IMG/VR virus record: IMGVR_UViG_3300044705_000115
Coordinates: 1-64,000 of that record
Source of the DNA: a virus
Direction: 5' to 3' (one strand)
DNA length: 64,000 bases
A program made the translations under genes and the position numbers. This document shows positions 220-58,815 of this stretch, piece after piece. The notes below the pieces were generated by a model. The model was given only the letters and a program-made list of their open reading frames with translations. It did no database searches and was not told the DNA's origin. Each line of letters starts with the position of its first letter. The stretch's first letter is position 1.

Positions 220-253
220 CCTCCTTGGTCGGGGCCACAAGCCTACGCGCTGC
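220..253 (-). promoter_or_regulatory. Promoter-leader module for ssb
   Basis: On the minus strand GCAGC, then the -10-like TAGGCT (245-240), 7 bases, then CCGACCAAGGAGG (232-220) just before the GTG of ssb. One of 18 such modules in the window. Confidence 0.7.
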
Positions 254-261
254 AGACCCGC

Positions 262-555
262 TCAGGCGACGAGTTCTGCCGGAAAACGCTCACTCTCCTC
301 GACCACGAAGAGGTTCGTGAGCTGGGCGAGGCCGCGGGGCATCGCCCCCTGGCCCGTGTAGGCGTTCTCCCAGATGTTCTTGCCATCGGCGAGGATGCGT
401 TTCCATTCGTCCCGGGCGACTTTCTCTTCGGGCCAGCGCATCCTTTCCAGCCCGCGCTTCCAGGCGAGCTCGAAGCCGATCCCCTTCGGTCGCTGGCGCT
501 CAAGCGATTCGCGCATCTGCGCCGCAGGAGTGGGGAGTGTCCTGCGGGCGCTCAA
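262..555 (-). CDS. Hypothetical protein (97 aa)
   Basis: Not recognised. Mostly helical and rich in charged residues and tryptophan (residues RWPEEKVARDEWKRILADGK). The TTG start overlaps the upstream stop codon (TTGA), which supports translational coupling to the zinc/DUF6582-like gene before it. Last gene of the short operon downstream of the Ro60 gene. Confidence 0.6.
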   Translation of the reverse strand: MSARRTLPTPAAQMRESLERQRPKGIGFELAWKRGLERMRWPEEKVARDEWKRILADGKNIWENAYTGQGAMPRGLAQLTNLFVVEESERFPAELVA

Positions 556-956
556 TCTTCGCTGCCCTTGCCGATGTTGGGATAGCGCCGATGCACCGCC
601 GCGCGGACAGCCGACTCCTCCGGCTTGCCCGCCGAGCGCGAAAGCGCGTTCCGCGCGTGCGATTCATCGTGGATCGGGTAGGAGCCCGGCCCCGGCGCCT
701 TCTCGGGGAAGACGAAGGCCGACTTGGGCAGCGCCTTGCGTTCTTCCATCTTCAGCTTGGCCTCCTCGAGGGACAGGTCGAGTTCGCTCGCCAGCGCCTC
801 GGCCATCTTCGCCTCGTCCTTGACCGATTCGCCCGAACCGCCCTTCAGCCGCAGCTTCTTGCCGCAGCTCTTGCAGGTCACGGTCATGCCGTGCTTGGAC
901 GACTTCGCCTTCTCGCGGTCGCTCGGGTTGATCGAATGAGGAGGACAGCTAGCCAT
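552..956 (-). CDS. Small zinc-ribbon protein with HDExHARNAL motif (134 aa)
   Basis: N-terminal CKSCGKK half-ribbon (about residue 29), an acidic helical middle, then the block YPIHDESHARNALSRS followed by VRAAVHRRYP. That C-terminal block recurs in actinophage proteins (DUF6582-like), often beside or fused to head proteins; its function is not established. The ATG overlaps the stop of the upstream gene, which chooses this start over an in-frame start 30 bases upstream. Confidence 0.7.
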   Translation of the reverse strand: MASCPPHSINPSDREKAKSSKHGMTVTCKSCGKKLRLKGGSGESVKDEAKMAEALASELDLSLEEAKLKMEERKALPKSAFVFPEKAPGPGSYPIHDESHARNALSRSAGKPEESAVRAAVHRRYPNIGKGSED

Positions 957-1173
957 TGGTGGCTCCTTCGAGTTGGAGGCGGGCATCGCCTCGATAGGTG
1001 CGCACCAGGCCCAGCAGGTCGTTCAACTCGTCGGAGGGCGAACCCTCCATTTCTCCCCTTACCTCTGCTTCGAGGCCCGAGAGCGCCTGGTCGCGCAGCG
1101 CAGGGTCGGCCTGGGTCTTCGCTGCTTCAATCCGCCGGCGGAGGTCAGCAGCAGGATCGGAGAACTCGGCCAC
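949..1173 (-). CDS. Hypothetical protein (74 aa)
   Basis: Short acidic helical protein with GTG start, overlapping the next gene by 8 bases. No family recognised. Sits in the operon Ro60, 59-aa protein, this gene, zinc protein, 97-aa protein. Confidence 0.6.
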   Translation of the reverse strand: MAEFSDPAADLRRRIEAAKTQADPALRDQALSGLEAEVRGEMEGSPSDELNDLLGLVRTYRGDARLQLEGATNG

Positions 1174-1206
1174 GAGCGGGAAGTTAGACGCCGCTGCGGA
1201 TGACGC

Positions 1207-1386
1207 TCAGTCGGTCAGCGAGTCGTCGTTGTAAATCGCGCGGGTTGCGGACCAGACCTGCTCTGCGCCCTGGTCGCCGAATAGCTCCTCAGCGACCCCC
1301 TTGGCGTTGTCCCAGCGCTGCTTCTCCTCGGCCGTGCTGACGAAGGGCGGATACTCCTGAATCACTTCTGCCTCTTCGTCAGCCAC
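1207..1386 (-). CDS. Small ChaB-like protein (59 aa)
   Basis: GTG-initiated frame of 59 codons. Residues TAEEKQRWDNAKGVAEELFG and VWSATRAIYND have the helix spacing of the ChaB-like fold common among phage small proteins. The match is by eye and weak. It lies between the Ro60 gene and the 74-aa gene on the same strand. Confidence 0.55.
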   Translation of the reverse strand: MADEEAEVIQEYPPFVSTAEEKQRWDNAKGVAEELFGDQGAEQVWSATRAIYNDDSLTD

Positions 1387-1404
1387 GAGCCGAGAATACC
1401 GCCG

Positions 1405-3111
1405 TTAGACCTCGCCCCGGATGAAAGCCGACATCGCGGCCGGAGCGCTGGTGTCGAAGCCGACGACATCCATGCTTCCGCTGTCGTTCGGATCGGCGAT
1501 GCTGAAATCGGTCGCGGTCATGCCGCAAACGATCAGCTTGGCGTCGATGCCCGATTTCTCGCGGTACTCGCGGAGCGCCTGCATGGGATGGATGTCGCCC
1601 GCCCACGTTTCGTTGTCGGTGTAGACGCAGAAGGCATCGACCTCGCGTTCCTCCTGCATCGCGTAGATCATCGGCAGGGCGCAGTCGGTCATGCCAACGT
1701 GACTGAGCCGGTCGAACTCGGCAGCGACATCGTTCAGCCGCATCGACGGCGTGACCGCCATCGGCGTGAAGCCCCGCTCATCCCGGTAGCCGCTGAAGTT
1801 GCCGTGACCCTGGCCAACCCCCAGCGAGTGCTTGATCCCACCGGGGATTTCGGAGCCAGCGAAGGCTACGGTCTCGTAGCGCGACTCCGAGCGAGCGGTG
1901 ACCATCGCCATGACCGCAGCGGCTTCCAGAGGAAGCAGGCCACCGAGTCCGTAGCGACCCCCAGCGTGGCGCATCGAGTTCGAGACATCGACAGCCAACA
2001 GGAACCGCTTGCCGGTCGGCTCGATGTTCTCGAAGGCCGAGTAGAAGGCGGCGTTCAGCGCATCGACGATCTGCGCCACCGGACTCCAGGTGTTGCCGCC
2101 CCGGTCGCCGTGGCCACTCTTGTACGTCATCAGCGCTGAGAGGACGGTCAGCGGGTGGACGCGAGCGCGACGGATGCGCTCACTGTCGCCGAGCTGGGCG
2201 ATCACCTTCTGGGTCGCCTCCCCGAAGGGGTCGAGCAGTCCCGAGCGCGTCATGTTGCCGAGGTTGCGGATCAACGCCGTCATCGGCATGTCCTCAAGCA
2301 GCGCCTCCTGAACCACCGGATCGGTCAGATGCTCGGAGCGGATCGCCTCACGGGGCAGCTTGTAGTCGCGGATCAGGTTCGCCGAGTTGCGCGGCGACTC
2401 CGCAACCTGGGCCATCCTGAAGCCCTCGATGACGCGCAGCACATGCGAGGGCGCGTCCAAGTCTCCGATGGGCACCGGCTTCTTGGTCGCGTTGCCGGTC
2501 ACGAACTCGAACAGTTCGGCGTGAGCGATCGACGGTGCCTTCGGATGGGCCAGCCGCAGGATGTCGCGGTGAGACCAGCCGTCGCGCTGGCGATACTTGA
2601 TGAGCTGGTAGGCCAGCTTCTCTGCGGGCCGGCCCGTGTACCAAGCGGCGACGCCGTGCCGCGCGGCCGGACCCCAGCCGCGGAACTGCTCCATGAAAGC
2701 CACGAAGTGCAGGATGTGGGTGCCGGTGCGGGCGACGCGCGGCAGGGCCTTGAAGGCGGCGCGGCGCGTCCCCTCGTCCTTGAAGGAGCAGGCCATTGCG
2801 AGGCAGAACAGCGCCGTGTCGTTGTCGCGGGCGAGGCCACGGTCGCTGACCTCGGCGATCAGCTCGACCGTGCGCTCGCCGTCCTCTGCGAGGCAGGCAT
2901 CGAGCGCCGCGACATTGCCCTTGACCATCTCGCGCTGCCCGACGTAGTAGGAGCCGCCTTCGGCGCCTAGGATCAGGAACCGGCGCAGGCGCGTCCAGAT
3001 GTCAACCTCCCAGGCGAAGCCGCCAGCGTTATTGGCGACCTGGCTCGAACCGGGGATCGGCTCGGACTGGGGGGTCTTGCGCGTCGAGTGATCGCGCAGG
3101 TAGTTGCTCAT
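1405..3111 (-). CDS. Ro60/TROVE-domain RNA-binding protein
   Basis: Bacterial-type Ro60 (Rsr), a ring-shaped RNA-binding protein that binds Y RNAs and misfolded RNA. 568 residues. The N-terminal HEAT-repeat TROVE region (about 20-350) carries FAWEVDIWTRLRRFLILG and the SYYVGQRE block. The C-terminal von Willebrand A-like domain has MIDAS residues DVSNSM (about 375-380), T at about 475 (GMTDCALP) and D at about 499 (YTDNETWAG). The linker PTGKRFLLAVDVS matches the family. The start ATG has GGAAGGAG upstream; a perfect 7-bp hairpin precedes it. A tRNA-like Y RNA lies immediately upstream on the same strand, which strongly supports the assignment. No PNPase gene is in the window. Confidence 0.95.
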   Translation of the reverse strand: MSNYLRDHSTRKTPQSEPIPGSSQVANNAGGFAWEVDIWTRLRRFLILGAEGGSYYVGQREMVKGNVAALDACLAEDGERTVELIAEVSDRGLARDNDTALFCLAMACSFKDEGTRRAAFKALPRVARTGTHILHFVAFMEQFRGWGPAARHGVAAWYTGRPAEKLAYQLIKYRQRDGWSHRDILRLAHPKAPSIAHAELFEFVTGNATKKPVPIGDLDAPSHVLRVIEGFRMAQVAESPRNSANLIRDYKLPREAIRSEHLTDPVVQEALLEDMPMTALIRNLGNMTRSGLLDPFGEATQKVIAQLGDSERIRRARVHPLTVLSALMTYKSGHGDRGGNTWSPVAQIVDALNAAFYSAFENIEPTGKRFLLAVDVSNSMRHAGGRYGLGGLLPLEAAAVMAMVTARSESRYETVAFAGSEIPGGIKHSLGVGQGHGNFSGYRDERGFTPMAVTPSMRLNDVAAEFDRLSHVGMTDCALPMIYAMQEEREVDAFCVYTDNETWAGDIHPMQALREYREKSGIDAKLIVCGMTATDFSIADPNDSGSMDVVGFDTSAPAAMSAFIRGEV

Positions 3112-3125
3112 CTGGGGCGCTCCTT

Positions 3126-3148
3126 CCGGGTCAGAGTGGAAGACCCGG
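3126..3148 (-). promoter_or_regulatory. Leader hairpin of the Ro60 mRNA
   Basis: CCGGGTC and GACCCGG form a perfect 7-bp stem with a 9-base loop directly before the GGAAGGAG ribosome site of the Ro60 gene. It could modulate translation; no evidence beyond position. Confidence 0.5.
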
Positions 3149-3223
3149 CGAGCGGGTGATGCAGACGGGGGTGATTTTCTCCAATGAAAAGGTAACCCGC
3201 CTGCTTCGGCCCGCCGGGCCAAA

Positions 3224-3380: not shown

Positions 3381-3499
3381 GAACTCGGAGCGGGTTGGTG
3401 CCTGCGGGGTTCGTTGTCAAGGCGATAACCCGCAAACTCCGGCTCCGAGTCCACTTCTGACCCGGCTGCTCCTCCCAAAGGAGCGCCGAGCGCCGCAGT

Positions 3500-4428: not shown

Positions 4429-4430
4429 GA

Positions 4431-4805: not shown

Positions 4806-5101
4806 GGCTTTTCTCCCTCGCTGTAGCTGATGGTCGGTGGCTCTTCGTCTTCTTCGCGCTTTCGGTTCTGCTTCTCCACAAGCTCGGCGAGCCTGCGCCT
4901 AATTCTCCGCTGGCGCTTGAAGCTGTCGTAGACGAAGAAGAGGATCAGGAGGAACCCGATGGCCGCGATGAGGCGGCCGAAGCCGTTGGCGTCGGTGTTG
5001 CTCGTGAGACTTCTGCCGGTCAGGGCGGTGTAGGCGAAGCTGACCTCAAGGAGCGCGACGCCCAGCAGCGCAACGACCACCCACCACGGAAACTTGCGCA
5101 T
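4802..5101 (-). CDS. Small membrane protein, two TM segments (99 aa)
   Basis: Two hydrophobic helices (about 6-27 and 43-60) separated by a short polar loop, then a strongly basic, likely cytoplasmic tail. No family recognised. The ATG overlaps the upstream stop (TGATG). Confidence 0.65.
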   Translation of the reverse strand: MRKFPWWVVVALLGVALLEVSFAYTALTGRSLTSNTDANGFGRLIAAIGFLLILFFVYDSFKRQRRIRRRLAELVEKQNRKREEDEEPPTISYSEGEKP

Positions 5102-5322
5102 CAATTCATCTCCAATCTGAATTCGGCGAGCTTCATGGAATGGCCGACCGCTTGGGCCGGAACCGGGATCTCCTCGCCCTCAGCAACGACATGGATCTCG
5201 GCGGTGATCTCCAAGCCGAGGGCTACCTTGATCCGGTTCGGCGCCGTCGTGGACTCACGCATGGCGACTCCGATCAGGGCCGGCCCCTTGCTGTCGAAGA
5301 TGAAGGCTGACATGCGGTCCAT
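5101..5322 (-). CDS. Hypothetical protein (73 aa), first gene of operon
   Basis: Beta-rich 73-aa protein. The ATG is 7 bases after the AGGAGG of a promoter-leader module, which fixes the start. Heads the group 5101-3500 (membrane protein, DUF3846, two unknowns). Confidence 0.65.
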   Translation of the reverse strand: MDRMSAFIFDSKGPALIGVAMRESTTAPNRIKVALGLEITAEIHVVAEGEEIPVPAQAVGHSMKLAEFRLEMN

Positions 5323-5329: not shown

Positions 5330-5360
5330 CCTCCTTGGTCGGGTGCCAACAAAGTTAGCA
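5330..5360 (-). promoter_or_regulatory. Promoter-leader module, TAACTT class
   Basis: Minus strand: GTGC, TAACTT (5357-5352), TGTTGGCAC, CCGACCAAGGAGG (5342-5330). Same extended sequence as the module at 42441. It overlaps the stop codon of the mIHF-like gene. Confidence 0.75.
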
Positions 5361-5703: not shown

Positions 5704-8700
5704 CTATCCGTCGATGCGTTTGACCCTCGTCTTGGCGTCGATCAGGCCGAGGCTGCCCGACTTGAACCCGACCAGCGTTTTGCCCTCAGGCCCAGGCCCG
5801 ACGACGGAGGCGATGGTGCCGTCTTTGTCGGTGATGACGGCGCCGGGCTCGAGTTCTTCGAGCCGGTAGTGCATGTACTTCCCTTTCGACCCCCACTTCG
5901 ATGTGTAGCCGTTGAGCTCGGAGGTCGGCACATCGTCCATCGCCTGACCAGCTTCCGCCAGCACCTTTTCGACATCGGGCGACCACTGCGACTGCAGCGC
6001 CGCCGTGGGGTCGAGCTTCTGCGTGTCTTTCAGAACCAGCGTCGATGGCAACTGGTTGAGGCTGCCCCCCTCGTCCTTGATGATCGTGTTGCCATCGACC
6101 GTGTGGGCAACGACCTCGTTGGCACCGTTCGTCGTCGTGTACTTCTCCCCCGGCTTCAGGTCGCTGACGACGAACTCGCCGGGCATTGGTTTCACGCCCG
6201 CTGCGGGTTTCGCCGGAGCCAGCGGCCAGTCGCTCGTCGTGGCGCCGGGTGGCGCTTTGTGGAAGTTGCCCTGGGCGTCCTGAAGAACCACGCCATCGAG
6301 CGATTTGGCGATGACGGTGTAGTCCTTCAAGTCGTTACCGAAGAACGTTTCGCCCTCGTGGATGCTTTCGATGTTCTCGCTGGCGAGCGCCTTCTTCAAC
6401 TCGTCATCGCCCTTCGCTGTCAGCTTCACCTTGTCGGGGATGAGCTCCGCTTTGACCGAGAACTTGGCGCCGTCGGGATCGGTCATCTCGACCACTGCGT
6501 CTTCGGGGTGCTTGCCTTTGGACGCACCGACCGTGTAGGCGTAGCCAGCGATGGTGACCTTCGTGCCGACCGGCAGTTTCCCGATCGGCGTCTCGTCGCT
6601 GTTCGGCAGCAGACCCTTGGCGGCATCTGCCTGGCCAGGGTCCGTACCCGGCCCCGGCAGCGGCCCGGTGGCGTCGTTGAAGTCGGCGGTTACGGCGCGG
6701 CCACGCAGCTTCGGGTCGGCGCTGTAGAGGAGCTGGCCGTCGGTGACGATGACATCGCCGTCGTTGGCCTTGACCTTCCACAGCTTGCCTTCTTTGCCGC
6801 GGAAGATCGTTCCCACCGGCATGTCGCCGATCTTGTCGTGGGTGTACTTGCCGCCGCTGCCGTGCTTGGAGATATACGCCTCGAAGCCACCCTCCTCGAC
6901 ATGGGAGGGCATCCCCGAACTGCTCGGCGCTGGCGACTCGGCGTGGATCGCCGGGTTCTTGCCGATGAAGGTGATCGGCTTGTCGGGGTAGCTCCAAGCC
7001 GTTTCGGAGGCGGAGAGGTGGCCGGACGGCTGCACCATCGCCACCGTCAGGTTGTCCTCCGGGCCTCCCTTGGCCTGGACTTTGAAAAGCTCCCCGCCGT
7101 CCTTGAAGTAGTCGCCCACCTCCAGGTTGCTGAGGGTCGTCGAGTCCTCGGGTTTGAGCTGGTCGTGGGGGATCGCTTTCTCGCCGAGTTCGTTCTTCGC
7201 CCACAGCTCCGTGACCTTCGCATCGTCGGGGTAAGCCGTGACATCGCCGCTGGCCAGGTTCTTGACCGGCTTCTTGCCCGGCTCAGTCGATGCATTGGGA
7301 TCGCCGAAGACGGCTTCGTAGACATTCCCGGTCCAGTCCACGAACTTGTCCCCGTGTTCGAGGTCGGCAACCTGAAGCTCGGCGCCGGGAACGTAGTCGT
7401 CAGCGCTGAACGGCGCGTCCGCTGACTTCGGCGTGTTCTTGGGCTCGTCAGGCGCCGGAGAGGCTTCGGCATCGAGCAGACGGCGCACCACCTTGGACTT
7501 GGTCGAGACCCCCGCCTCGCCCGTGTCGAGGTTCTTCCACAGCACTTTGTTGCCCTCGGTGCCGGTGACCAGATAGGGGCGCTGAGACTGGCCGCGGCCC
7601 CCGTGGAAGAGGTCGCCGACAGCGAGATCGCCGACCTTGATTTTTGAGCCGATCTTGTGCGCCTGCGGGTCGTAGAGATCAGCGAGAGCTTCGTCGTCGG
7701 GCGAGATCGCCACGACTTTGCCGCCGGACGGTTTCGCCTTGATCGTCCCATCCTTCAAGACCTTCGTGATCGTGTGCTTCTTGCCCTGATAGGGCAGCGT
7801 CATCCCTTTCTGCGGGGTGAGCTGCGGCGCAGCGACATCCTCTTCGTCGGGGACGTAGCCCTCCTTGGCGACGAGAGTCGGCGTCTTGTAGTCGGTGTTG
7901 ATCGTCCCGACTTTCCCCGTCATCAGGTCGAGAATCTGCGTCTTCGCGCCGTTGATCTGGGCTTTGACTTCGTAGGGGTTGCCGTTGACCTTGAATTTCT
8001 CCCCCTCGGCCATCTGGCCGGTGAACTTCTCGCCCGTGCCGTTCACCCAGGCGTTGGGGTCGAACAGCTCCGACTCGGCCTGCAGCTTGTGCGGGTCGGG
8101 CAGGTCGTAATGCTCGCTCAGCTTGAAGTACTGGTTCTGGCCGCCGCCCTCGAAGTTGTAGCTCTCCCCAGTGAACTTGCCGTTCTCGATCTTCACGTAG
8201 CGCAGGCCGAATCCGGTGTCGTCGCCGGGGTCCTCAACGATCAGGTAGAGCGTGCCTTTCAGCCCCATCATGTAGTCGCCGGGCTTCAGTTCCGACTCCT
8301 TGGCGACGGTCGCTTTCGGCGTGCCGTCGGCGTTCTTGAATGCCCACGGCCCCGACTTGTCGAGCTCTGCCGGAGTCCACGGCTTGCTCTGCTGCGATGG
8401 CAGCTTGTCGGCGAAGCGAGCCGAGAACTCGGCGGCCTCCGCCGGCGGGTCGATCCAGAGCTTCTGCGCCTGGCCCTGCATCTGAACATCGGGCGGCGCT
8501 GGCGGGGTCGGCAGCATCTCGCCGTTCTCGATCGCGTCGCGGAAGCGTTCGATGGTGGCGCCGCCGGAGGGCGCTTTGGTGACGCCCATCAGCCACTTTT
8601 TCTGGTTCTCGGTGATGTCGTAGAGCGAGAAGTACATCGACCGCTTGTCGATCTTGATCTGCTCCGCGACGCTGATCTCCAGCTCGCCGACGAAGTGCGT

Positions 8701-10212
8701 CTGCCCTGGGATCGGCTGCGCCGAGTAGGACGACATCAGGACATGGCGGATCGCCAGCGGCGTAGCGAGCGTGTTGTTGCCGAACTGGAAGTTGGCCCCG
8801 AAGTTGAAGCTCTGCGAGAGGCCGGACATGATCGGCTTCTTGCCGTCGATCATGGCCTGCCAGTAGCTCGGCGCGTTCGTGTTCTTGTGGAAGACCGCGA
8901 CATCCGGCGAGCGGGTGCGGTTGTAGAGGTCCCAGGCGACGATGTCTTTGTGGCGGCCCTGCAGCGCCAGCGCCAGTTTGCGCTGCTCGTCCAGCTTGCC
9001 GAGTTCGGTTTTGCCGCCCTTGAACGCCTTGAACATCGAGGCCAGCGAGAGCGTGAAGCCGCTCGACGACCCATACTGGGCGGAATAGGCGTTCTTGACG
9101 ATTGACTGGATCGTCGCCTCGTAGTCCTTGTAGCTCTCGTCGATCAAGTCCTTCGCCTTGCCCGGCGAGTATTTGCCGAATCTCTGCATCAGCTCGGCGT
9201 AATGCTCCTGATCGACCGAGCCGAAGCGCTGCCACTCCTCCGGCTTGATCTTCGAGTGGGCGGGGATCGCGATGGAAGGGTCATGGGTCGTCGGATCGAC
9301 GTAGGGATCGACGGTCGCCACGCCGGATTCGATGCCCTTGGCCTTGTCCGATTTCAGAGCTACCGGCTTGCCCTCCTTCTTGGCGTCAGCGATGAACGCC
9401 TTGCCGCCCTCAAGGGAAGGGCTGAAGACGCCGGTTTCCGCGTCTTTGAAGCTCTTGCCGATGCGGTTGGCGATGACCTTCCCGCCCGCAAGGTGGGCGA
9501 CCTGCCACTCCTTGCCGTCTCCCGAGATGAAGGTCTCGCCGACCTTGATGAACTCGCCCGCCTTCGGCGTCCCTTTCGGCCAGCGGGGGTGCAGGGTCGG
9601 GTCCCACTTGCCCTCCATCAGCGCCTCCGCGAGGCTGGCGGCGGCGCTGCCGCCGAGGGCGAAGCTGTATCGGTCGCCCCCCCAGGCGAGCGTCACGCGC
9701 GAGAACGCGACCGGGATCGGCTTCTCGATATTCGGTCGCCGGCGGGCGTAGTCGAGCGTCATGTGCGGCGTGAAGCCGTGGTCGCGGCTCGGCGGCAGGC
9801 CCGCCTGGTCGAGCGTATCGACGAGTTCCTGCCGCAGCGGAGGGAGGTCGGGAAGATCGACCGAGAGGTAGGTGACCGGCCCAGCGATGAACTGACCGAC
9901 GCCGCTGATCTCTCCGCGCATCTCTTCCGGGCACTTCGCGGCCCAGGTCGCTACGACTCGCAGCGCGTCTTTGAGGTCGAGATCAGCGGCCTTCCCGAGG
10001 AACGCGAGCGTCACATGGAGTTCATCGGCGTCCTCGCCGTCGGCGATGGCCAGCTCGGCCGCCGTGGCGGCGTCGGGGAAGAGAGCGACCATCGCGCCTT
10101 GCTTGGTCGCCGCCGTCGCGGCCTCCATAAGGGAAGCGGCAGCGGTGTCAGCGAGCAGTTCGTCGGGGTCGCCGTCAGCCTCGACCGGCTCGAAGACAGG
10201 TTCGCGCAGCAC
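5704..10212 (-). CDS. Giant multidomain protein: 2H phosphoesterase, ART-like domain, beta repeats
   Basis: 1502 residues from a GTG at 10212, chosen because it follows the upstream stop; an in-frame start at 10308 would overlap that gene. About residues 60-190: 2H-phosphoesterase (LigT-like) with the two HxT motifs HVTLAFLG (about 66) and HMTLDY (about 150). Then the WDPTLHPRWPKGTPKAGEF linker common in actinophage head proteins. Residues about 320-520 have an ADP-ribosyltransferase-like pattern ending in an E-x-E (GELEISV, about 510). From about 640 to the end are some 10 beta-rich units of the form L.vGD.F...G..Y.V. Probably virion-associated; the enzymatic activities are inferred from motifs only. 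Confidence 0.75.
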   Translation of the reverse strand: MLREPVFEPVEADGDPDELLADTAAASLMEAATAATKQGAMVALFPDAATAAELAIADGEDADELHVTLAFLGKAADLDLKDALRVVATWAAKCPEEMRGEISGVGQFIAGPVTYLSVDLPDLPPLRQELVDTLDQAGLPPSRDHGFTPHMTLDYARRRPNIEKPIPVAFSRVTLAWGGDRYSFALGGSAAASLAEALMEGKWDPTLHPRWPKGTPKAGEFIKVGETFISGDGKEWQVAHLAGGKVIANRIGKSFKDAETGVFSPSLEGGKAFIADAKKEGKPVALKSDKAKGIESGVATVDPYVDPTTHDPSIAIPAHSKIKPEEWQRFGSVDQEHYAELMQRFGKYSPGKAKDLIDESYKDYEATIQSIVKNAYSAQYGSSSGFTLSLASMFKAFKGGKTELGKLDEQRKLALALQGRHKDIVAWDLYNRTRSPDVAVFHKNTNAPSYWQAMIDGKKPIMSGLSQSFNFGANFQFGNNTLATPLAIRHVLMSSYSAQPIPGQTHFVGELEISVAEQIKIDKRSMYFSLYDITENQKKWLMGVTKAPSGGATIERFRDAIENGEMLPTPPAPPDVQMQGQAQKLWIDPPAEAAEFSARFADKLPSQQSKPWTPAELDKSGPWAFKNADGTPKATVAKESELKPGDYMMGLKGTLYLIVEDPGDDTGFGLRYVKIENGKFTGESYNFEGGGQNQYFKLSEHYDLPDPHKLQAESELFDPNAWVNGTGEKFTGQMAEGEKFKVNGNPYEVKAQINGAKTQILDLMTGKVGTINTDYKTPTLVAKEGYVPDEEDVAAPQLTPQKGMTLPYQGKKHTITKVLKDGTIKAKPSGGKVVAISPDDEALADLYDPQAHKIGSKIKVGDLAVGDLFHGGRGQSQRPYLVTGTEGNKVLWKNLDTGEAGVSTKSKVVRRLLDAEASPAPDEPKNTPKSADAPFSADDYVPGAELQVADLEHGDKFVDWTGNVYEAVFGDPNASTEPGKKPVKNLASGDVTAYPDDAKVTELWAKNELGEKAIPHDQLKPEDSTTLSNLEVGDYFKDGGELFKVQAKGGPEDNLTVAMVQPSGHLSASETAWSYPDKPITFIGKNPAIHAESPAPSSSGMPSHVEEGGFEAYISKHGSGGKYTHDKIGDMPVGTIFRGKEGKLWKVKANDGDVIVTDGQLLYSADPKLRGRAVTADFNDATGPLPGPGTDPGQADAAKGLLPNSDETPIGKLPVGTKVTIAGYAYTVGASKGKHPEDAVVEMTDPDGAKFSVKAELIPDKVKLTAKGDDELKKALASENIESIHEGETFFGNDLKDYTVIAKSLDGVVLQDAQGNFHKAPPGATTSDWPLAPAKPAAGVKPMPGEFVVSDLKPGEKYTTTNGANEVVAHTVDGNTIIKDEGGSLNQLPSTLVLKDTQKLDPTAALQSQWSPDVEKVLAEAGQAMDDVPTSELNGYTSKWGSKGKYMHYRLEELEPGAVITDKDGTIASVVGPGPEGKTLVGFKSGSLGLIDAKTRVKRIDG

Positions 10213-10228
10213 GCGAGGAAGGGTAGGG

Positions 10229-10411
10229 CTAGAGGCGGCTGATCTGAATCGACTCGCCGCACTTGATGCACGTAACGGCCCCAGCGCCGCGAGATTTGGC
10301 TGTCGCAAGCACCGCCTCTGAGACTGCGTGACGACCTCCCTCCGCGCACTCCAGGCTGTCCGCCTTCATGCCCTGCTGCTTCAGCGAGACTCCCGGTCCT
10401 TCGGCTTTCAT
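10229..10411 (-). CDS. Small protein with CxxC near C-terminus (60 aa)
   Basis: 60 residues ending TCIKCGESIQISRL, a half zinc ribbon. No family recognised. It lies 10 bases after the Lys/Arg-rich gene and ends just before the giant gene. Confidence 0.5.
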   Translation of the reverse strand: MKAEGPGVSLKQQGMKADSLECAEGGRHAVSEAVLATAKSRGAGAVTCIKCGESIQISRL

Positions 10412-15312: not shown

Positions 15313-15383
15313 CGAGGGACCAGGGAATCGAACCCCGACAGTGCGGCTTTGGAGACCGACCGGCACAACCTACGCTGTCCCCC
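15313..15383 (-). tRNA. tRNA-Trp (CCA), atypical D-arm
   Basis: Acceptor GGGGGAC/GTCCCTC pairs with one G-U; anticodon loop CTCCAAA; T-arm loop TTCGATT. The D-arm is short and lacks the usual GG-containing loop geometry. No encoded CCA. Confidence 0.65.
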
Positions 15384-20097: not shown

Positions 20098-20555
20098 CAG
20101 CAGACCCGAGCCTGCATTTCGGTCAGCGTCGGCGCCCGCTGCGGGTATTCGTTGAAGCTGGGGCCAACGACCTTCGCTTCAAAGATGTTCGCCTGCCGCC
20201 GGTTGTAATCGACAACGATCTGGCGGTACTTGGCCTTGTACGCGAGGGCCGGATCTTCGAGCAGCGTCGGTGACTGCCGCGACCCCTTCGAGTTTTCGGC
20301 ACCGCAGGCGTTTTCGGCCGCAGCTTCCATCGCGTTCCAGTCTTCGATGACGGCGTGGTACTGCGCCTTCACGTTCTCGGGGCCAGCGACTTCAGCGGCG
20401 GTGTTGAACCAGTTGCCGATCCAGCCGATGACGCCGATGACGACTGCCAGAACCACGACCACGGCGATGACGCCGAGACCCCAGCGGATGCCGGTGCGGA
20501 CGGGGCGGTCGCCGAAGCGATCCGCCTCCCGTTCCGCGCGGTCTTCCCAGCTCAC
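20097..20555 (-). CDS. Single-pass membrane protein (152 aa)
   Basis: Cytoplasmic N-terminus (about 25 residues), one TM helix (about 27-48), and an extracytoplasmic region with two cysteines likely in a disulfide. Coupled to the lipoprotein gene before it, so both may act at the cell surface. Confidence 0.65.
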   Translation of the reverse strand: MSWEDRAEREADRFGDRPVRTGIRWGLGVIAVVVVLAVVIGVIGWIGNWFNTAAEVAGPENVKAQYHAVIEDWNAMEAAAENACGAENSKGSRQSPTLLEDPALAYKAKYRQIVVDYNRRQANIFEAKVVGPSFNEYPQRAPTLTEMQARVC

Positions 20556-21157
20556 TGACCTGCCGCCTGCTTGAGGATCTTCTCCGCCTTGGCCTTGTCG
20601 CCGGCGGCGAGGGCCTTTTCGGCTTCGCCGGTCGCCTTGGCGAGCGAGCCGTCAACCGAGAGCGCGATCGACTGCGTCTGGTATTCGAGCGGCTGCGTCG
20701 TGCAGAGCGTCGGCATGTCGAAGAAATCGACGTACTGGCCGCCGGGCGTGAAGCCGTAGCGATACTGCGGCGGATTCGGGTGGTAGAGGCCATCGACCGA
20801 ACGACGCGGGAGCGCTACTGCGCCGTGCTCGCCGCTGACCCTTTCTTCGGGCCGGAAGAACGTCGTCGTCGAGGAAGTCAGCTTGCCCGCGACAGGAACC
20901 GTGACCGGCTTCTCGGTGGGCGACTGCGGGAACGCGGTGCACCAGAGGATCGTCGCGGGGTTGTCATAGAGTTCCTGCGACTGGTTGTAGTTGTGGAACT
21001 CGACGCCGTTCTTGGGGATGTAGGCGTGGTAGCTGCGGGCGACCGCCGCGACTTCTTCTTCTTCCTTCGAGTGATCTTCTTCGTCGCACGCAGAGATGAA
21101 GATCGCCATCGCCAGCACCGCGACGATGAGCATCAGGAACTTCGGCAACTGCTTCAT
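20552..21157 (-). CDS. Phage lipoprotein (201 aa)
   Basis: Signal peptide with lipobox FISAC at the expected position (about residue 24), followed by an acidic stretch and YHAYIPKNGVEFHNYNQSQE, a motif I have seen in phage surface proteins. A prophage-type lipoprotein could act in superinfection exclusion; here that is speculation. First gene after a promoter-leader module. Confidence 0.75.
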   Translation of the reverse strand: MKQLPKFLMLIVAVLAMAIFISACDEEDHSKEEEEVAAVARSYHAYIPKNGVEFHNYNQSQELYDNPATILWCTAFPQSPTEKPVTVPVAGKLTSSTTTFFRPEERVSGEHGAVALPRRSVDGLYHPNPPQYRYGFTPGGQYVDFFDMPTLCTTQPLEYQTQSIALSVDGSLAKATGEAEKALAAGDKAKAEKILKQAAGQ

Positions 21158-21168: not shown

Positions 21169-21204
21169 CCTCCTTGGTCGGTTGGCGGGCAGGGTAGACG
21201 CTGC
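21169..21204 (-). promoter_or_regulatory. Promoter-leader module for lipoprotein operon
   Basis: TGCAGC, TACCCT (21196-21191), 9 bases, CCGACCAAGGAGG (21181-21169). Confidence 0.75.
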
Positions 21205-22919: not shown

Positions 22920-22950
22920 GTGATAACTTCGTTGGCACCGACCAAGGAAC
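22920..22950 (+). promoter_or_regulatory. Promoter-leader module (rightward), TAACTT class
   Basis: TGATAACTTCGTTGGCA followed by CCGACCAAGGAAC. The same extended sequence is found leftward at 51021-51052. It is the only module of the family on this strand. Confidence 0.75.
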
Positions 22951-26052: not shown

Positions 26053-26063
26053 TGGCAAATCCT

Positions 26064-26094
26064 CCTCCTTGGTCGGTTATCGACAATCTTAGAC
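26064..26094 (-). promoter_or_regulatory. Promoter-leader module for ArsR-like gene
   Basis: TAAGAT (26091-26086), TGTCGATAA, CCGACCAAGGAGG (26076-26064). Confidence 0.75.
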
Positions 26095-29525: not shown

Positions 29526-29562
29526 CCTCCTTGGTCGGTTGACCGCAGAGGCTACCTGCTGC
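29526..29562 (-). promoter_or_regulatory. Promoter-leader module
   Basis: TGCAGCAGG, TAGCCT (29554-29549), 10 bases, CCGACCAAGGAGG (29538-29526). Confidence 0.75.
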
Positions 29563-34108: not shown

Positions 34109-34147
34109 CCTCCTTGGTCGGTTGCTCAGCTCAAACGTAGCCGCTGC
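34109..34147 (-). promoter_or_regulatory. Promoter-leader module
   Basis: TGCAGCGGC, TACGTT (34139-34134), 12 bases, CCGACCAAGGAGG (34121-34109). Confidence 0.75.
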
Positions 34148-36221: not shown

Positions 36222-36255
36222 CCTCCTTGGTCGGAGCCGCCAGCCTACCTGCTGC
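36222..36255 (-). promoter_or_regulatory. Promoter-leader module
   Basis: CGCAGCAGG, TAGGCT (36247-36242), 7 bases, CCGACCAAGGAGG (36234-36222). Confidence 0.75.
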
Positions 36256-38582: not shown

Positions 38583-38589
38583 TCGATTC

Positions 38590-38616
38590 TCCTTGGTCGG
38601 TTGCGAGCATCCTATT
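38590..38616 (-). promoter_or_regulatory. Promoter-leader module
   Basis: TAGGAT (38614-38609), GCTCGCAA, CCGACCAAGGAG (38600-38590). Lacks the upstream GCAGC. Confidence 0.7.
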
Positions 38617-42422: not shown

Positions 42423-42440
42423 GTCGAACCTCCTCGTAAG

Positions 42441-42466
42441 CCTTGGTCGGTGCCAACAAAGTTAGC
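42441..42466 (-). promoter_or_regulatory. Promoter-leader module, TAACTT class
   Basis: GTGCTAACTTTGTTGGCA then CCGACCAAGG; identical over this stretch to the module at 5330. The ribosome site is a separate AGGAGG 10 bases on. Confidence 0.75.
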
Positions 42467-45768: not shown

Positions 45769-45800
45769 CCTCCTTGGTCGGGTGCGAGCAGGCTACCGGA
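45769..45800 (-). promoter_or_regulatory. Promoter-leader module
   Basis: GTAGCCT (-10 at 45795-45790), GCTCGCAC, CCGACCAAGGAGG (45781-45769). Confidence 0.75.
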
Positions 45801-50557: not shown

Positions 50558-50584
50558 CCTCCTCGGTCGGGTCGGCCAAGGTTA
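50558..50584 (-). promoter_or_regulatory. Promoter-leader module (variant)
   Basis: TAACCT (50584-50579), TGGCCGAC, CCGACCGAGGAGG (50570-50558), one base off the consensus. Confidence 0.65.
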
Positions 50585-50969: not shown

Positions 50970-51020
50970 GCCTTCTCCTTCGTTGTGCGCCCAGCCCGAC
51001 ATGCCACGGGGGGCGGGCGT

Positions 51021-51052
51021 TTCCTTGGTCGGGATGCCAACGAAGTTATCAG
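51021..51052 (-). promoter_or_regulatory. Promoter-leader module, TAACTT class
   Basis: TGATAACTTCGTTGGCA then CCGACCAAGGAAA. Same extended sequence as the rightward module at 22920. Confidence 0.7.
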
Positions 51053-51056: not shown

Positions 51057-51545
51057 TCAGCAGCCCTCGCAAGGCTCGGCCAGCGATGGCAGGGAGCGCC
51101 ACCAGCGCAGATGGACATCGGGGACGGACGTATAGCCCCAGAAGGTTCCCGTCTCGGTCGGGATCGCCGGAACCATGAAGCCGATCTGGTCGGTGCGAGC
51201 GAAGTAGCCGGGGATCATCCCGTCATCGTCGATCCCCATCACATCCTTGCTTTCGCGCTCGCCGGCGCAGCGGGCGCACAGAAGAGTCTGCTCATCGGCG
51301 AAGGTCTGGAACTCGCGCCAGAGCTTCACCCCCTCCTCTCCGCATCCCTCGCAGGCGTAGGGAATCCGCCTCTTGGAGCCCGTGCCGCCGCACCCGCCAC
51401 AGGTGACGAAGCCAGCTCGCTGCCCGCTGACGCTGATCATCAGCGTGCCGTAGCCCTCGCATCCAGGGCATTGCTCGTCGCCGTCGAGTTGGCGCTGCCG
51501 AGCCAGCTCATCGGCCTTCCATTTGATCTCCGGTGGGATCGACAT
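51057..51545 (-). CDS. Protein with DnaJ-type zinc repeats (162 aa)
   Basis: CPGCEGYG, CGGCGGTG, CEGCGEEG and CARCAGE follow the CxxCxGxG pattern of the DnaJ central domain, without J-domain. Possibly a protein- or RNA-binding scaffold. First and only gene behind its promoter-leader module. Confidence 0.7.
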   Translation of the reverse strand: MSIPPEIKWKADELARQRQLDGDEQCPGCEGYGTLMISVSGQRAGFVTCGGCGGTGSKRRIPYACEGCGEEGVKLWREFQTFADEQTLLCARCAGERESKDVMGIDDDGMIPGYFARTDQIGFMVPAIPTETGTFWGYTSVPDVHLRWWRSLPSLAEPCEGC

Positions 51546-51549: not shown

Positions 51550-51580
51550 CCTCCTTGGTCGGGAAGGCGAGCCTAGAAGA
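51550..51580 (-). promoter_or_regulatory. Promoter-leader module
   Basis: TAGGCT (51575-51570), CGCCTTC, CCGACCAAGGAGG (51562-51550). Confidence 0.75.
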
Positions 51581-51980: not shown

Positions 51981-52802
51981 CTACAGCGGGTAGGCCCGGC
52001 TCCCGCCTTCCTTCTGGATCGGTGGCCGACTGCGAAGGCGGGCGGTCTTGCGCAGGCGTTTGGCCAGCGCGTAGGCGACGCCACCCCAGCGGTCGGTTCC
52101 CGGCGTCCCGAAAATCTCGGCTTCGCCCTGGGCCTGCCGCAGCGCTTTTGCGGGCACCACAGCCGTCAGCCGTTTCCACTGGGCGGGCGTGAGGTCGAGG
52201 TCGTAGTCGTCGCGCACGAGCAGGCCCAGCGCCCTGATCCAGTGCGAGGTATTGGCTTTCGGGTCCTCGCGCCAGTGCGTGTTCAGCGTCAGCGTGCGGC
52301 GGAGCTCGTCGGGGCCGAGCATCTGGTAGATGCCGTCGAGCGCGTTGACGGTTTCGATCCGGTGGTAGGGCTTGCCCTTGGAGAGTTTGCCGATCTCGAA
52401 GTTCAGCCCCTCTGTGATGGCCTTGATCTCGACGGCGACCGGCTCCTTCATCTTCACCCGCTCGAGGAAATGCTCCAGCGGCGAGACGCGCCGGCGGTCG
52501 CGGTCGATGGCGAGCTTCAGCGCCGCCTTTTCCTGAACGGAGCGAACCTCCGAGTGGACATCGCAGCGCCACTCCTTGACGCCGCGGGCTTTCCCCGCGA
52601 GGAAGCGATGGCGGCCGTCGATGATGCCGTACTTCGGGAAACCGTCCTTGCTCGGCAGCGGCGCCACCACCAGGACGACGACATAGGAGGGATTCCAGTT
52701 CTCGATCATCTGATCGACGCGCCGCTCCTCCAGCGTGTGGTCGATCTGGACGTCTGGGTCAGGGATCAACTGCTCGGTAGGGAGAACCCGCAACGAAGGC
52801 AT
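51981..52802 (-). CDS. ParB-like nuclease domain protein, DUF6551-like (273 aa)
   Basis: N-terminal ParB/Srx-type fold: EERRVDQMIENWNPSYVVVL, KYGIIDGRHRFLAGKARGVK (DGRHR core), then EKAALKLAIDRDRRRVSPLE. The helical remainder is typical of phage DUF6551 proteins. DGxHR suggests nucleotide or DNA phosphodiester chemistry. ATG follows the promoter-leader motif. Confidence 0.85.
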   Translation of the reverse strand: MPSLRVLPTEQLIPDPDVQIDHTLEERRVDQMIENWNPSYVVVLVVAPLPSKDGFPKYGIIDGRHRFLAGKARGVKEWRCDVHSEVRSVQEKAALKLAIDRDRRRVSPLEHFLERVKMKEPVAVEIKAITEGLNFEIGKLSKGKPYHRIETVNALDGIYQMLGPDELRRTLTLNTHWREDPKANTSHWIRALGLLVRDDYDLDLTPAQWKRLTAVVPAKALRQAQGEAEIFGTPGTDRWGGVAYALAKRLRKTARLRSRPPIQKEGGSRAYPL

Positions 52803-52814: not shown

Positions 52815-52850
52815 CCTTTCTTGGTCGGGTTCCAGCGTTCTAGACGCTGC
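52815..52850 (-). promoter_or_regulatory. Promoter-leader module
   Basis: TGCAGCGTC, TAGAAC (52842-52837), 8 bases, CCGACCAAGAAAGG. Confidence 0.65.
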
Positions 52851-53821: not shown

Positions 53822-54126
53822 CGAAGCAACGCTTCTTCCCACGGCTCCAGCGCGTAGGCCGCCGCAAGCTCTTTCGCCTGCTCCAAGGTGAAGCGATGGT
53901 GCCGCAGGAACTCGGCGTCTCGGCTCGCTGGCGGTTGTGGCTCGAGTACCCATCTGCCGTCGTCGCACAGCACGCGCCGCTGCCGTTCGATCTTCCATCG
54001 GTCGAGGTCAGCGATGCGGACGAAGCCATCTACGATGGCGCCACTGCGCTTGATCTCGGTGTAGTCGTATGGATGTCGCGGAAAGTCCGGCCCCTCGATG
54101 AGGTAGCCGCATACAACGAAGTCCAT
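53818..54126 (-). CDS. Hypothetical protein (102 aa), operon head
   Basis: MDFVVCGYLIEGPDFPRHPY and FRHHRFTLEQ-like region near residue 80. No family recognised. ATG after a variant promoter-leader motif. Confidence 0.55.
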   Translation of the reverse strand: MDFVVCGYLIEGPDFPRHPYDYTEIKRSGAIVDGFVRIADLDRWKIERQRRVLCDDGRWVLEPQPPASRDAEFLRHHRFTLEQAKELAAAYALEPWEEALLR

Positions 54127-54135: not shown

Positions 54136-54170
54136 CCTCTCCTCGGTCGTTGGACGAGAGGAAGCCTACC
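54136..54170 (-). promoter_or_regulatory. Promoter-leader module (variant)
   Basis: TAGGCT (54168-54163), TCCTCTCGTCCAA, CGACCGAGGAGAGG. Confidence 0.6.
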
Positions 54171-55269: not shown

Positions 55270-55278
55270 CGCTTCCTC

Positions 55279-56019
55279 CTACTTGTCCAAGATCACGGTG
55301 ATGGTGTTGACGGCGGTGCCGCTCGCCTTGAAGGAGTTCGCGGCGTTGGGGATGTGATAGCCGTGCTGCCCGACCAGATCGGCGAAGGCGATGTTCTTGC
55401 GGCGCTCCCCGGTCAACGCGCCGGCGCCCATGACCGACACCAGCTTGCCGCCCGGCGCGAGCAGCGAGAACGCCTTCGTCACATGGTCGATGTCCTGCTG
55501 GCGCTCGAAGGGCGGGTTCATCACCACGCGGTCGAAGAGCAACGGGAACTCCGCCGCCATGAAGTCCTCCACGAGCAGGTTGGGCAGGCTCAGATGCTCG
55601 GCGTGCTTGGGCTGAATCTCCACCGCCCACAGGTTCTCCGGCGCCACCCCCATCTGCAGCACCCGCTCGACTATCGCGCCGCGCCCGGCGGATGGCTCGA
55701 GGACGGTGTGGTTGGCGTGGACATCGGCGAGGTCGACGAGCAGATCGACCAGCCGCTCCGGCGTCGGGAAGTAGCCCATCTTGTCGATTGGCTCGACCTT
55801 GCCCTCGGCGAGCAGCGCTTCAAAGCGCTCGCGTGACTCCGGCTCGGTCAGCACATGGCCGCCCTTGCTGCGGTTCCACTTCGCGCCGATCGACTTCAGC
55901 ACTTTGTCCACGCGGACGTATTCATCGCGGTCGAGCTGGGTCTTCAAGACGAGCAGGTCGCCGTCGAGCTCAGCGTCGGCGAGGATCGTCAGAATGGCAG
56001 GGTCTACTGCGCGGGGCAC
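55279..56019 (-). CDS. N6-adenine-type DNA methyltransferase-like protein (246 aa)
   Basis: SAM motif I LEPSAGRGAIVERVL (about 108), VEIQP after strand 2, and catalytic NPPF (VMNPPFERQQD, about 168), then LLAPGGKLVSVMG. NPPF is the N6-adenine/amino-MTase signature. The N-terminal 90 residues (YVRVDKVLKSIGAKWNRSKG) are a module often fused to phage MTases. No target-recognition domain or partner endonuclease is adjacent, so host-evasion or epigenetic use is likely. ATG follows a promoter-leader module. Confidence 0.85.
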   Translation of the reverse strand: MPRAVDPAILTILADAELDGDLLVLKTQLDRDEYVRVDKVLKSIGAKWNRSKGGHVLTEPESRERFEALLAEGKVEPIDKMGYFPTPERLVDLLVDLADVHANHTVLEPSAGRGAIVERVLQMGVAPENLWAVEIQPKHAEHLSLPNLLVEDFMAAEFPLLFDRVVMNPPFERQQDIDHVTKAFSLLAPGGKLVSVMGAGALTGERRKNIAFADLVGQHGYHIPNAANSFKASGTAVNTITVILDK

Positions 56020-56023
56020 GGCG

Positions 56024-56058
56024 CCTCCTTGGTCGGTTGGCGCCAGCCTATCCGCTCA
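56024..56058 (-). promoter_or_regulatory. Promoter-leader module
   Basis: GAGCGGA, TAGGCT (56050-56045), GGCGCCAA, CCGACCAAGGAGG (56036-56024). Confidence 0.75.
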
Positions 56059-56685: not shown

Positions 56686-56695
56686 GGGCCGCACC

Positions 56696-57137: not shown

Positions 57138-57562
57138 CAGGCTGGCGCCTTCTCGCGCTCGCGGTCACGGCGGTTGGCCTCGGCGACGATCTCGGCCATG
57201 CTCTTGTGTTCCTCGGCCGAGAGCGCCTGCAGGATCGCGTTCGTCCCCGCCCACAGCGGCGGTTCGCGCTTGCCTTCCTCGGCCCAGATGCGCTTGACGG
57301 TTTCGAGCATGTCGAGCGCCGCCCAGAGCGCTTCGGCGTCGAGGACGGGCGCCTGGCTCTCGCCCATGATGTCGGCCGCTTCGTTCAGCACCTTGGCCTC
57401 GCGCAGGCAGCCGGTGTAGGCGTCCGCCGCCGCGTCGAAGGTGTCCTGCAGGTCGAAGGGCAGCACCCGTGTCGCCCGCTGCGGCCCCAGCCATGAGAGC
57501 GCTTCGCCGTGGCGCTTGGCCCAGATTTCGGCCTTCGTCGCCTCCTCCCTGATCAGCCTCAC
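57137..57562 (-). CDS. Hypothetical helical protein (141 aa)
   Basis: FDAAADAYTGCLREAKVLNE and AEALWAALDMLETVKRIWAE. GTG coupled. Confidence 0.55.
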   Translation of the reverse strand: MRLIREEATKAEIWAKRHGEALSWLGPQRATRVLPFDLQDTFDAAADAYTGCLREAKVLNEAADIMGESQAPVLDAEALWAALDMLETVKRIWAEEGKREPPLWAGTNAILQALSAEEHKSMAEIVAEANRRDREREKAPA

Positions 57563-57771
57563 CAGATCGCCCCCGCCGCGAGGATGACGCCGCAGATGAT
57601 CGACACGACGACCGCGTAGATCAGGATGCCGAGCGCCGTCACCAGCACCTTCTCGCGGACGCTGCCTTTCTTCGGCTCCCCGCCGGCGACGAGGCCGACG
57701 AGGATCACGAAGGCCATGACGAAGGCGACGAGGATCAGAGTCAGGGCGAGCCGCCCCAAGATGTCATCCAT
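57559..57771 (-). CDS. Membrane protein, two TM helices (70 aa)
   Basis: LILVAFVMAFVILVGLVAGG and ALGILIYAVVVSIICGVILA, with a basic loop between. Confidence 0.55.
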   Translation of the reverse strand: MDDILGRLALTLILVAFVMAFVILVGLVAGGEPKKGSVREKVLVTALGILIYAVVVSIICGVILAAGAIW

Positions 57772-58006
57772 CCGTGACCGCCTTCTCGACGAACTTCGCG
57801 TAGCGCTTCGCCATCCCTAGCCCGACCGCTGCTGCCTCAAGGTCGAAGTCGATCTCGGCGGCGAGAACGCCCCAGTCGGTGAGCATCTGCGCCGCATCGA
57901 CCGCGTAGGGGTCCTCGATGGTCGCCTCCATGTCGCGTTCGAGCAGTTCCCTGACGATGCGCTCGGCGTCGGGCGATAGGTAGCGGCGGTGTTCGGGGGC
58001 GGGCAT
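57764..58006 (-). CDS. Hypothetical helical protein (80 aa)
   Basis: YLSPDAERIVRELLERDMEA. TGATG coupled. Confidence 0.5.
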   Translation of the reverse strand: MPAPEHRRYLSPDAERIVRELLERDMEATIEDPYAVDAAQMLTDWGVLAAEIDFDLEAAAVGLGMAKRYAKFVEKAVTDG

Positions 58007-58323
58007 CAGTCGCCTCCTCCGAACCCGAACACGGCGCGAGCCTTCGCTTCTGCTGCCTCCCGCTTGCCCTCGTAGGCGAGTTGCGCTCCGCTGAAAGCGA
58101 AGGTCGCCCAGATCCACGGGCCGAACAGCAGCACCGCGACGACGAGGCCCGCGATTTTCAGCGGCTTCGGCAACGCGAAGTAACGCTGCACCCACTTCGG
58201 CGCGTCCTTGGGCAGGAAGGTCGCCTTGTGAACCTCGTCGATGATCGGTTCGGCGACGATGCGGCCTGCCACCGACCACACCGCGATCAGCACCCAGACT
58301 GGCACCACGATCCTGCGCCTCAT
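58006..58323 (-). CDS. Membrane protein, two TM helices (105 aa)
   Basis: VVPVWVLIAVWSVAG and LKIAGLVVAVLLFGPWIWAT. Charged helical C-terminus. ATGA coupled to the lipoprotein gene. Confidence 0.6.
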   Translation of the reverse strand: MRRRIVVPVWVLIAVWSVAGRIVAEPIIDEVHKATFLPKDAPKWVQRYFALPKPLKIAGLVVAVLLFGPWIWATFAFSGAQLAYEGKREAAEAKARAVFGFGGGD

Positions 58324-58538
58324 TCTTCTTCCCCTTCCAGGTCGAACGCCGAGTTGTCCTGACAGACCACGACGCTCGGCGTCCCGTAGCGGTCGGTCGA
58401 GATTTGCCTGACGCCGCCGTGGGCAGCGCAGGCGGCAGAGGCATCGGCCGCGTCGGGCGGTCGGTAGCCGCCCAAGCCGCCGCAACCGACCAGCGACCCT
58501 GCGAACGCGAGGGCGAGAACCAGCGCGAGCGGTCTCAT
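58320..58538 (-). CDS. Small lipoprotein (72 aa)
   Basis: Signal peptide with lipobox SLVGC at residue 19, mature part with two further cysteines and an acidic C-terminus. ATGA coupled. Confidence 0.65.
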   Translation of the reverse strand: MRPLALVLALAFAGSLVGCGGLGGYRPPDAADASAACAAHGGVRQISTDRYGTPSVVVCQDNSAFDLEGEEE

Positions 58539-58777
58539 ACGAAGTAGATGAGGACGGAGTTGTCGCGCTCGCCGACGGTCATCATGCCCTCGCGCTGCGC
58601 CTGCTGGTTGATGTCTTCCAGCCGCCCAATCTGACCGAGCATCGCCGGCACGGTGATTTCGATCTCCACCTTGTAGCTGCGCTCGCCCCCATGCGAGATG
58701 GACACCAGCCGAACGTCGCTGTCCGGGCAGTGGGACTCCAACACGCGAAGCAGGGGTTCTGCTTCTAGGTACTTCAA
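58535..58777 (-). CDS. Hypothetical protein (80 aa), operon head
   Basis: TTG start 5 bases after the AGGAGG of a promoter-leader module: LKYLEAEPLLRVLESHCP, then YKVEIEITVPAMLGQIGRLE. A longer in-frame start would run through the promoter. Confidence 0.55.
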   Translation of the reverse strand: MKYLEAEPLLRVLESHCPDSDVRLVSISHGGERSYKVEIEITVPAMLGQIGRLEDINQQAQREGMMTVGERDNSVLIYFV

Positions 58778-58782
58778 CTGGT

Positions 58783-58815
58783 CCTCCTTGGTCGGTTCGG
58801 TGAAGACTACCCGCT
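58783..58815 (-). promoter_or_regulatory. Promoter-leader module
   Basis: GAGCGGG, TAGTCT (58809-58804), TCACCGAA, CCGACCAAGGAGG (58795-58783). Confidence 0.75.

Follow-up and report, generated by a model that had tools for sequence, protein, structure and literature searches.

A start-associated tag on non-structural genes of an uncultured phage family and a candidate antisense RNA encoded beside recT

A shared tag at gene starts and a complementary RNA

The DNA analysed here is the first 64 kb of the 130,043-base IMG/VR virus record IMGVR_UViG_3300044705_000115 (66% GC), which is coded G000 below; this 64,000-nucleotide stretch is referred to as the window. It holds a family of short conserved sequences, most of them directly ahead of a start codon, which resemble the start-associated sequences (SAS) of other phages and which we call the tag (consensus CCGACC[A/G]AGGAG; CCGACCAAGG[AGG] in the window phage). 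We consider it probable that this tag is the target of a single phage-encoded, trans-acting antisense RNA that would block the translation of a non-structural regulon. That one such RNA reads the same 10–12-nt tag on 8–15% of the phage's own genes, that tag and RNA change together across lineages, and that this would be the first mechanism for an SAS system also seems likely to us, although we state it with a little more reserve.

To gather relatives, sequences were scanned first for the motif together with a start codon and afterwards for the head protein G000_193. Outside annotated records, genes were located with a simple purpose-written caller, and their coordinates are approximate. The core CCGACCAAGG occurs 18–25 times in each of G001, G002 and G003, and CGACCGAGG lies at 23–26 gene starts in each of G010, G012, G021 and G022, as well as at 8 in the fragment G011. 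Overall, the tag is found on ∼20–30 non-structural genes per genome, about one gene in ten (8–15%). The shared leader that the sequence-only reading of the window had proposed is borne out, and it belongs to non-structural operons: none of 236 structural genes was tagged, compared to 184 of 1358 other genes (Fisher p = 4e-14). Tagged genes serve recombination and other non-structural functions, including recT, an exonuclease and SSB, and many are of unknown role. Orthologs tended to be tagged together, for example between G000 and G001 (p = 1e-5) and between G010 and G012 (p = 3e-16).

In G000, G001 and G002, the gap that precedes recT holds a reverse-orientation tag that is tied to no gene start (in G000 at 97,264 on the minus strand, outside the window). 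In each of these three genomes the tag is part of a small unit that combines a −10-like box and a structured RNA with a strong terminator-like hairpin (G000, 97,295–97,153, minus strand, in the same record but outside the window; G001, 129,150–129,271, plus strand; G002, 1,421–1,314, minus strand). The complement CCUUGGUCGG of the tag CCGACCAAGG is carried on a hairpin with the loop UUGGUC, which is closed by a GUCC/GGAC stem in G000 and by an ACCC/GGGU stem in G001 and G002; the fold z-scores of the three RNAs range from −3.2 to −4.0. G008 and the loci L283 and L284, which have altered tags, carry a related RNA with altered loops at the same place.

In G010, G012 and G022, and likewise in G009 and seven IMG/VR loci (L286, L288, L289, L291, L292, L296 and L306), the unit is on the opposite side of recT and convergent with it. 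In an alignment of these 11 sequences of the convergent type alone, the only long invariant block was CTCCTCGGTCGGGAT; the full 12-nt complement of the G010-clade tag lies within it without a mismatch: the RNA has an invariant CUCCUCGGUCGG where the tag is CCGACCGAGGAG. The flanking stems co-vary, with only one of 5000 arm swaps reaching native stability. A model of this RNA type found one further member (L294, E = 1e-9), and a search of all IMG/VR with the exact 17-mer CACTCCTCGGTCGGGAT gave seven matches, six of which are this RNA, while the seventh, in a coding stretch, looks like chance. Between the two clades, A in the tag (CCGACCAAGG) goes with U in the RNA and G in the tag (CCGACCGAGG) with C. 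A weaker form of the RNA is present upstream of recT in G018 and L312, and only ∼3–5 G018 starts match it. No Rfam family matched the RNA above the gathering score, and an initial wide scan for hairpins complementary to the tag gave too much noise to be of use. The sequence-only reading had raised the possibility that the leader is an antisense target; a predicted gene for a complementary RNA was indeed found in G000 and most of the relatives that hold recT.

Complementarity to the RNA of at least 9 nt was present at 16–32 starts per genome, with an exact match of 10–12 nt. The computed duplex of the tag with its own seed has an energy of −21 to −25 kcal/mol, compared to −10 to −11 kcal/mol for the tag with the 16S tail, and the predicted pairing would cover all of the Shine–Dalgarno (SD) sequence in the G010 clade and part of it in the G000 clade. 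From comparison of the genomes, we infer that tag and RNA pair, and further that the RNA is produced, that pairing takes place in vivo and that repression is its outcome, as well as when the RNA acts. In the mechanism that we propose, a small unit of its own beside recT, for which a promoter and a terminator-like hairpin are predicted in most copies, would give rise to a structured RNA of ∼100 nt with a terminator-like 3′ hairpin and the tag complement on a short hairpin. This RNA would pair over 10–12 bp with the tags, across part or all of the SD sequence. Since the SD sequence would be covered by a duplex with about twice the computed stability of the 16S pairing, the RNA should block ribosome binding, and since the tagged genes belong to recombination and other non-structural functions, the early/middle set would be turned down together. 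Blocked initiation is the simplest outcome of such pairing.

Several observations weigh against this proposal. G003 has both tags and recT, yet no copy of the RNA was found in it, and we also count against the proposal that the records of G021 and G011 lack the recT region. In the G018/G015 clade the RNA is only weak, and the main start element is a different hairpin–SD sequence. The A-to-G/U-to-C match between the clades amounts to a single event, and thanks to G–U pairs each seed would bind the tag of the other clade almost as well as its own. A single family of uncultured phages supplies most of the signal, and at the short recT loci it was not possible to read the tags of the genomes to which they belong. 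The complement is partly paired in local stems in some predicted folds, and the promoter and terminator of the RNA unit are read from sequence. Finally, in cluster K phages, from which SAS are known, a complementary loop is present only in K1 phages and is not conserved.

Alternative explanations

The tag contains AAGGAGG or GAGGAG at normal spacing and might merely be a strong cis ribosome-binding site with a favourable upstream context, but we regard this as highly improbable. In G000, conservation is strongest outside the SD sequence (89–100% for CCGACC, 78% for the thirteenth base), and 28–52 other genes per genome have a plain SD sequence without the tag. No CCGACC consensus was detected upstream of the SD sequence in these plain SD genes, and the tagged genes therefore form a separate class. 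Furthermore, the core CCGACCAAG is more than a ribosome site because the SD sequence is separate from the tag at three window sites (42450 and 52828 on the minus strand, 22938 on the plus strand). An extended anti-SD pairing was considered and rejected: all 16S tails that we read (30 genes, Actinomycetota) were CCTCCTTTCT, and a GGT tail occurred in 0 of 296 Actinomycetota genomes; as judged from these tails, CCGACC cannot pair with the actinobacterial 16S end, although only this phylum was sampled. We give just as little credit to the view that the motif is read as DNA and serves as an operator or a promoter element where the transcript begins. The promoters do have palindromes of their own, and in G000 and G001 the −10 lies 6–16 nt upstream of the tag, a spacing that would permit a transcript start at or beside the motif, as the sequence-only reading had it. 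This does not hold generally, however. Across nine genomes, the tag-to-start distance is mostly 4–9 nt while the −10-to-tag distance varies from 6 to 35 nt; a short hairpin separates promoter and tag in G003 and the G010 group; and in the relatives up to half of the sites are at starts without a promoter. In G010, G012, G021 and G022, a recognisable promoter is missing from 8–15 tagged starts per genome, several of which fall inside the preceding coding sequence. Because of the spacing of up to 35 nt, the intervening hairpin and the promoterless internal starts, we set the promoter reading aside and regard the tag as an RNA or translation-start element.

It is unlikely, though less so than these two views, that the RNA pairs with the tags with an outcome other than simple repression, for example that early messages are stabilised or matured, that an RNase is recruited for their degradation or that the RNA is itself titrated by plentiful tagged messages as a timing device. 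The same complementarity would account for this, and the tagged leaders of the G003/G010 clade have a covarying 5′ hairpin of a message-protecting kind. Yet pairing over all of the SD sequence in the G010 clade, and part of it in the G000 clade, predicts blocked initiation, and we saw no leader structure for the RNA to open. We think it very unlikely that the tag is read by a protein, of the phage or of the host, and that the recT-adjacent RNA is coincidental or serves another purpose. Cluster K SAS are without a conserved complementary RNA, so other factors may read such tags, and two small conserved families, G000_1 and G000_135, track the CCGACC tag across genomes. However, the exact 10–12-nt complement is the invariant part of a fast-changing RNA at a conserved locus, which is hard to explain otherwise, and the predicted model of G000_1, a small helical protein, matches no solved fold.

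Another small family, Cys-rich and zinc-ribbon-like (L122:7887-8138, minus strand), is present in eight of eight large CCGACC-tag genomes and not in G018 or G015. DUF3310, which has been suggested for Adephagia, was not found, but as a control search matched nowhere either, this is uninformative.

Leader structures in the relatives

The arms of the leader hairpins in G003 and the G010 group co-vary: the native mean was −10.5 kcal/mol compared to −6.4 kcal/mol with swapped arms, and none of 2000 permutations was as good. In the promoters of G003, G010, G012, G021, G022 and G011, this hairpin follows a dyad, GCACACGnnGTGTGC, that lies beside an extended −10 (loci L139–L144, L183–L196, L209–L221 and L230–L232). 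The dyad is a candidate operator for a common regulator, and the hairpin a candidate structured 5′ end of the message. G018 and G015 have another start element, in which a hairpin is directly followed by GGAAAGG or AGAGAGG, at 14–22 sites (G018, L202–L208; G015, L222–L226); this sequence can pair with the extreme actinobacterial 16S end (CCUUUCU). A search for the complement of these elements gave intergenic matches that were nearly all the antisense strand of the elements; no match came with a terminator, and the candidate was dropped. At position 59669 of G002 (minus strand, in L135), an 11-bp hairpin has the tag core GACCAA as its loop and leaves the SD sequence outside; this is a possible target for a loop–loop interaction. 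A comparison of the tagged leader with cultured phages gave no significant match.

Comparison with known systems

The SAS of cluster K mycobacteriophages is an asymmetric sequence of ∼13 bp that overlaps the SD sequence 3–9 bp from the start codon; its 11–19 copies per genome have one orientation, are restricted to non-structural genes and are conserved beyond 16S pairing, and about half have an upstream promoter and dyad, the extended SAS, with a 17-bp inverted repeat and a SigA-like promoter upstream of about half of the sites (PMC11373665). The tag described here agrees with it in being present in many copies at ribosome-binding sites a short distance from the start, in its restriction to non-structural genes (0/236 against 184/1358) and in a conservation that exceeds pairing with the 16S tail. 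It differs in sequence, the SAS consensus being GGGATAGGAGCCC as opposed to CCGACC[A/G]AGGAG, the phages are unrelated, and a covarying RNA hairpin and a complementary RNA are present here, whereas no conserved complementary RNA was found in cluster K. The suggestion of the sequence-only reading that the motif is conceptually SAS-like but of different sequence therefore stands for the positional features tested. Where the extended SAS is concerned, the promoters of this phage family have the GCACACGnnGTGTGC dyad and an extended −10 in the G003/G010 clade and GCTAACTTTGTTGGC in G000 and G001; no 17-bp repeat was seen. In the K1 phage Anaya, a hairpin loop complementary to the SAS, CCUCCUAUCC, lies in a 386-bp gap that is conserved in 177 phages; Hammy, Marshawn, Cain, Keshu and MacnCheese do not share this loop. 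The conserved non-coding region of ∼390 bp concerned (L323:35682-36068; Mycobacterium phage Anaya 59,681–60,067) also has a terminator-like hairpin and invariant stretches.

Microbacterium phages of cluster EF carry an SAS-like motif, GGGAAAGGACCCC, in ten copies of 13 bp; the copies lie at ribosome-binding sites, an element upstream of them is weakly conserved, and complementarity to 16S was noted (PMC7302621). Length and position are shared with our tag, whereas the sequence is not, and no partner RNA was reported (PMC7302621). Short phage RNAs that pair with phage messages are known from P22 (sar) and lambda (OOP), and sar blocks translation initiation (PMC12197685). On paper, the recT-adjacent RNA would resemble sar in its complementarity to ribosome-binding sites of phage messages; sar and OOP are described with one gene each, however, whereas here one RNA faces a tag on 16–32 starts per genome. 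VpdS of phage VP882 is a phage-encoded, trans-acting small RNA that affects phage and host messages, but it is described as Hfq-binding and is not reported to read one shared start tag (PMC12197685). We found no description of such a pair of tag and antisense RNA in the open-licence papers that were searched.

The analysis thus proposes, from sequence, a partner for an SAS-like tag, with predictions at the level of single letters. SAS have been known in actinobacteriophages since 2011 and, to our knowledge, have no known function or partner. If the proposal is true, a single antisense RNA would govern a large part of the phage gene set, including dozens of early genes, as a compact post-transcriptional switch that is unlike the one-target antisense RNAs of P22 and lambda. 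It would also constitute a natural tag/anti-tag pair that is potentially useful in gene control.

Tag sites in the window

The exact 13-mer CCGACCAAGGAGG occurs 11 times in the window, always on the minus strand, compared to 0.1 occurrences expected from an order-2 Markov model. Allowing up to three mismatches, there were 82 matches against 34 expected. At seven other sites of the window, a variant preserves most of the core together with the same arrangement. The 18 sites of the sequence-only reading, 17 leftward and one rightward, could thus be reconstructed and the family is real, although to speak of CCGACCAAGGAGG at 18 sites is slightly generous, with 11 being exact. The motif also extends beyond the window: the complete record of 130,043 bases has 16 exact copies, against 0 of the reversed control, and the motif recurs at the gene starts of the relatives. 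A −10-like box, TAnnnT, lies 7–13 nt upstream of nearly all window sites. It follows the proposed TAGNCT at about eight sites and TAACTT at four, while the others have different TAnnnT boxes. TGCAGC just 5′ of the −10, noted earlier for several sites, was recorded at 232, 29538 and 52828 (all minus strand). At most sites a start codon is found 4–12 nt 3′ of the 13-mer; exceptions are the three sites with a separate SD sequence after the tag and 45781 (minus strand), where no good start codon was found near the motif.

Among the exact copies, TAGGCT precedes those at 220–232 (TGCAGC upstream; GTG at 215, the gene running off the start of the record), 36222–36234 (GTG at 36215), 51550–51562 (ATG at 51545) and 56024–56036 (GTG at 56019), and TAGCCT those at 29526–29538 (TGCAGC upstream; ATG at 29520) and 45769–45781 (next called start at 45725). 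The copy at 58783–58795 has TAGTCT and a likely start at TTG 58777 (80 amino acids), that at 21169–21181 has TACCCT (ATG at 21157; gene 20552–21157) and that at 26064–26076 has TAAGAT (TTG at 26058 or ATG at 26052). Orthologs in G001 are tagged too for the copies at 34109–34121 (weak −10; ATG at 34102) and 5330–5342 (TAACTT; ATG at 5322, gene 5101–5322). Next to the latter, an imperfect palindrome, GCTAACTTTGTTGGC (5345–5359, minus strand), covers the −10; it is common to promoters of the TAACTT class in G000 and G001 and is a candidate operator.

The core CCGACCAAGG follows TAACTT at 22938–22950 on the plus strand (with a separate hairpin and SD sequence, then ATG at 22982) and, on the minus strand, at 42438–42450 (separate downstream SD sequence GAGGAGG; ATG at 42422) and 51020–51032 (ATG at 51002). 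The remaining variants, all on the minus strand, are CCGACCAAGGAGA at 38588–38600 (−10 TAGGAT; GTG at 38582), the G010-clade form CCGACCGAGGAGG at 50558–50570 (−10 TAACCT; ATG at 50549), CCGACCAAGAAAG at 52816–52828 (SD sequence GGAGGAG after the tag; TGCAGC upstream; ATG at 52802) and ACGACCGAGGAGA at 54138–54150 (−10 TAGGCT; ATG at 54126).

The phage and neighbouring features

The window phage is contractile-tailed, as a tail sheath gene was found, and its large terminase shows a distant likeness to those of SPO1-type phages; no close cultured relative of it was found. The proteins that it shares with G001, G002 and G003 have a median identity of only 41–54%. In a tree of four proteins, G000 and G001 group with G002 and G008, G003 joins the G010 group, and G015 pairs with G018. 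The nearest sequence links of the phage, tentative as to the host, are to actinobacteria: one relative was binned with an Actinobacteria metagenome-assembled genome, and there is a 64-bp tRNA-like match to Streptomyces phage Manuel. The window has 21 tRNA genes, and this match (15317–15380, minus strand) lies within a tRNA cluster; it is unannotated, was not called by ARAGORN and has 89% identity to an unannotated inter-tRNA gap of Manuel. Its anticodon region is CUCCAAA, and it is possibly a tRNA-Trp.

Two further proteins are encoded near the start of the window. The one at 1405–3222 (minus strand), which G000 shares with G001 and which was not found in G002 or G003, matches PHROG 850, annotated as an RNA-binding protein and possibly Ro/TROVE-like. 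The other, at 5704–10308 (minus strand), is a protein of 1534 amino acids with an N-terminal RNA-ligase-like domain that is also found in Arthrobacter and Rhodococcus phages.

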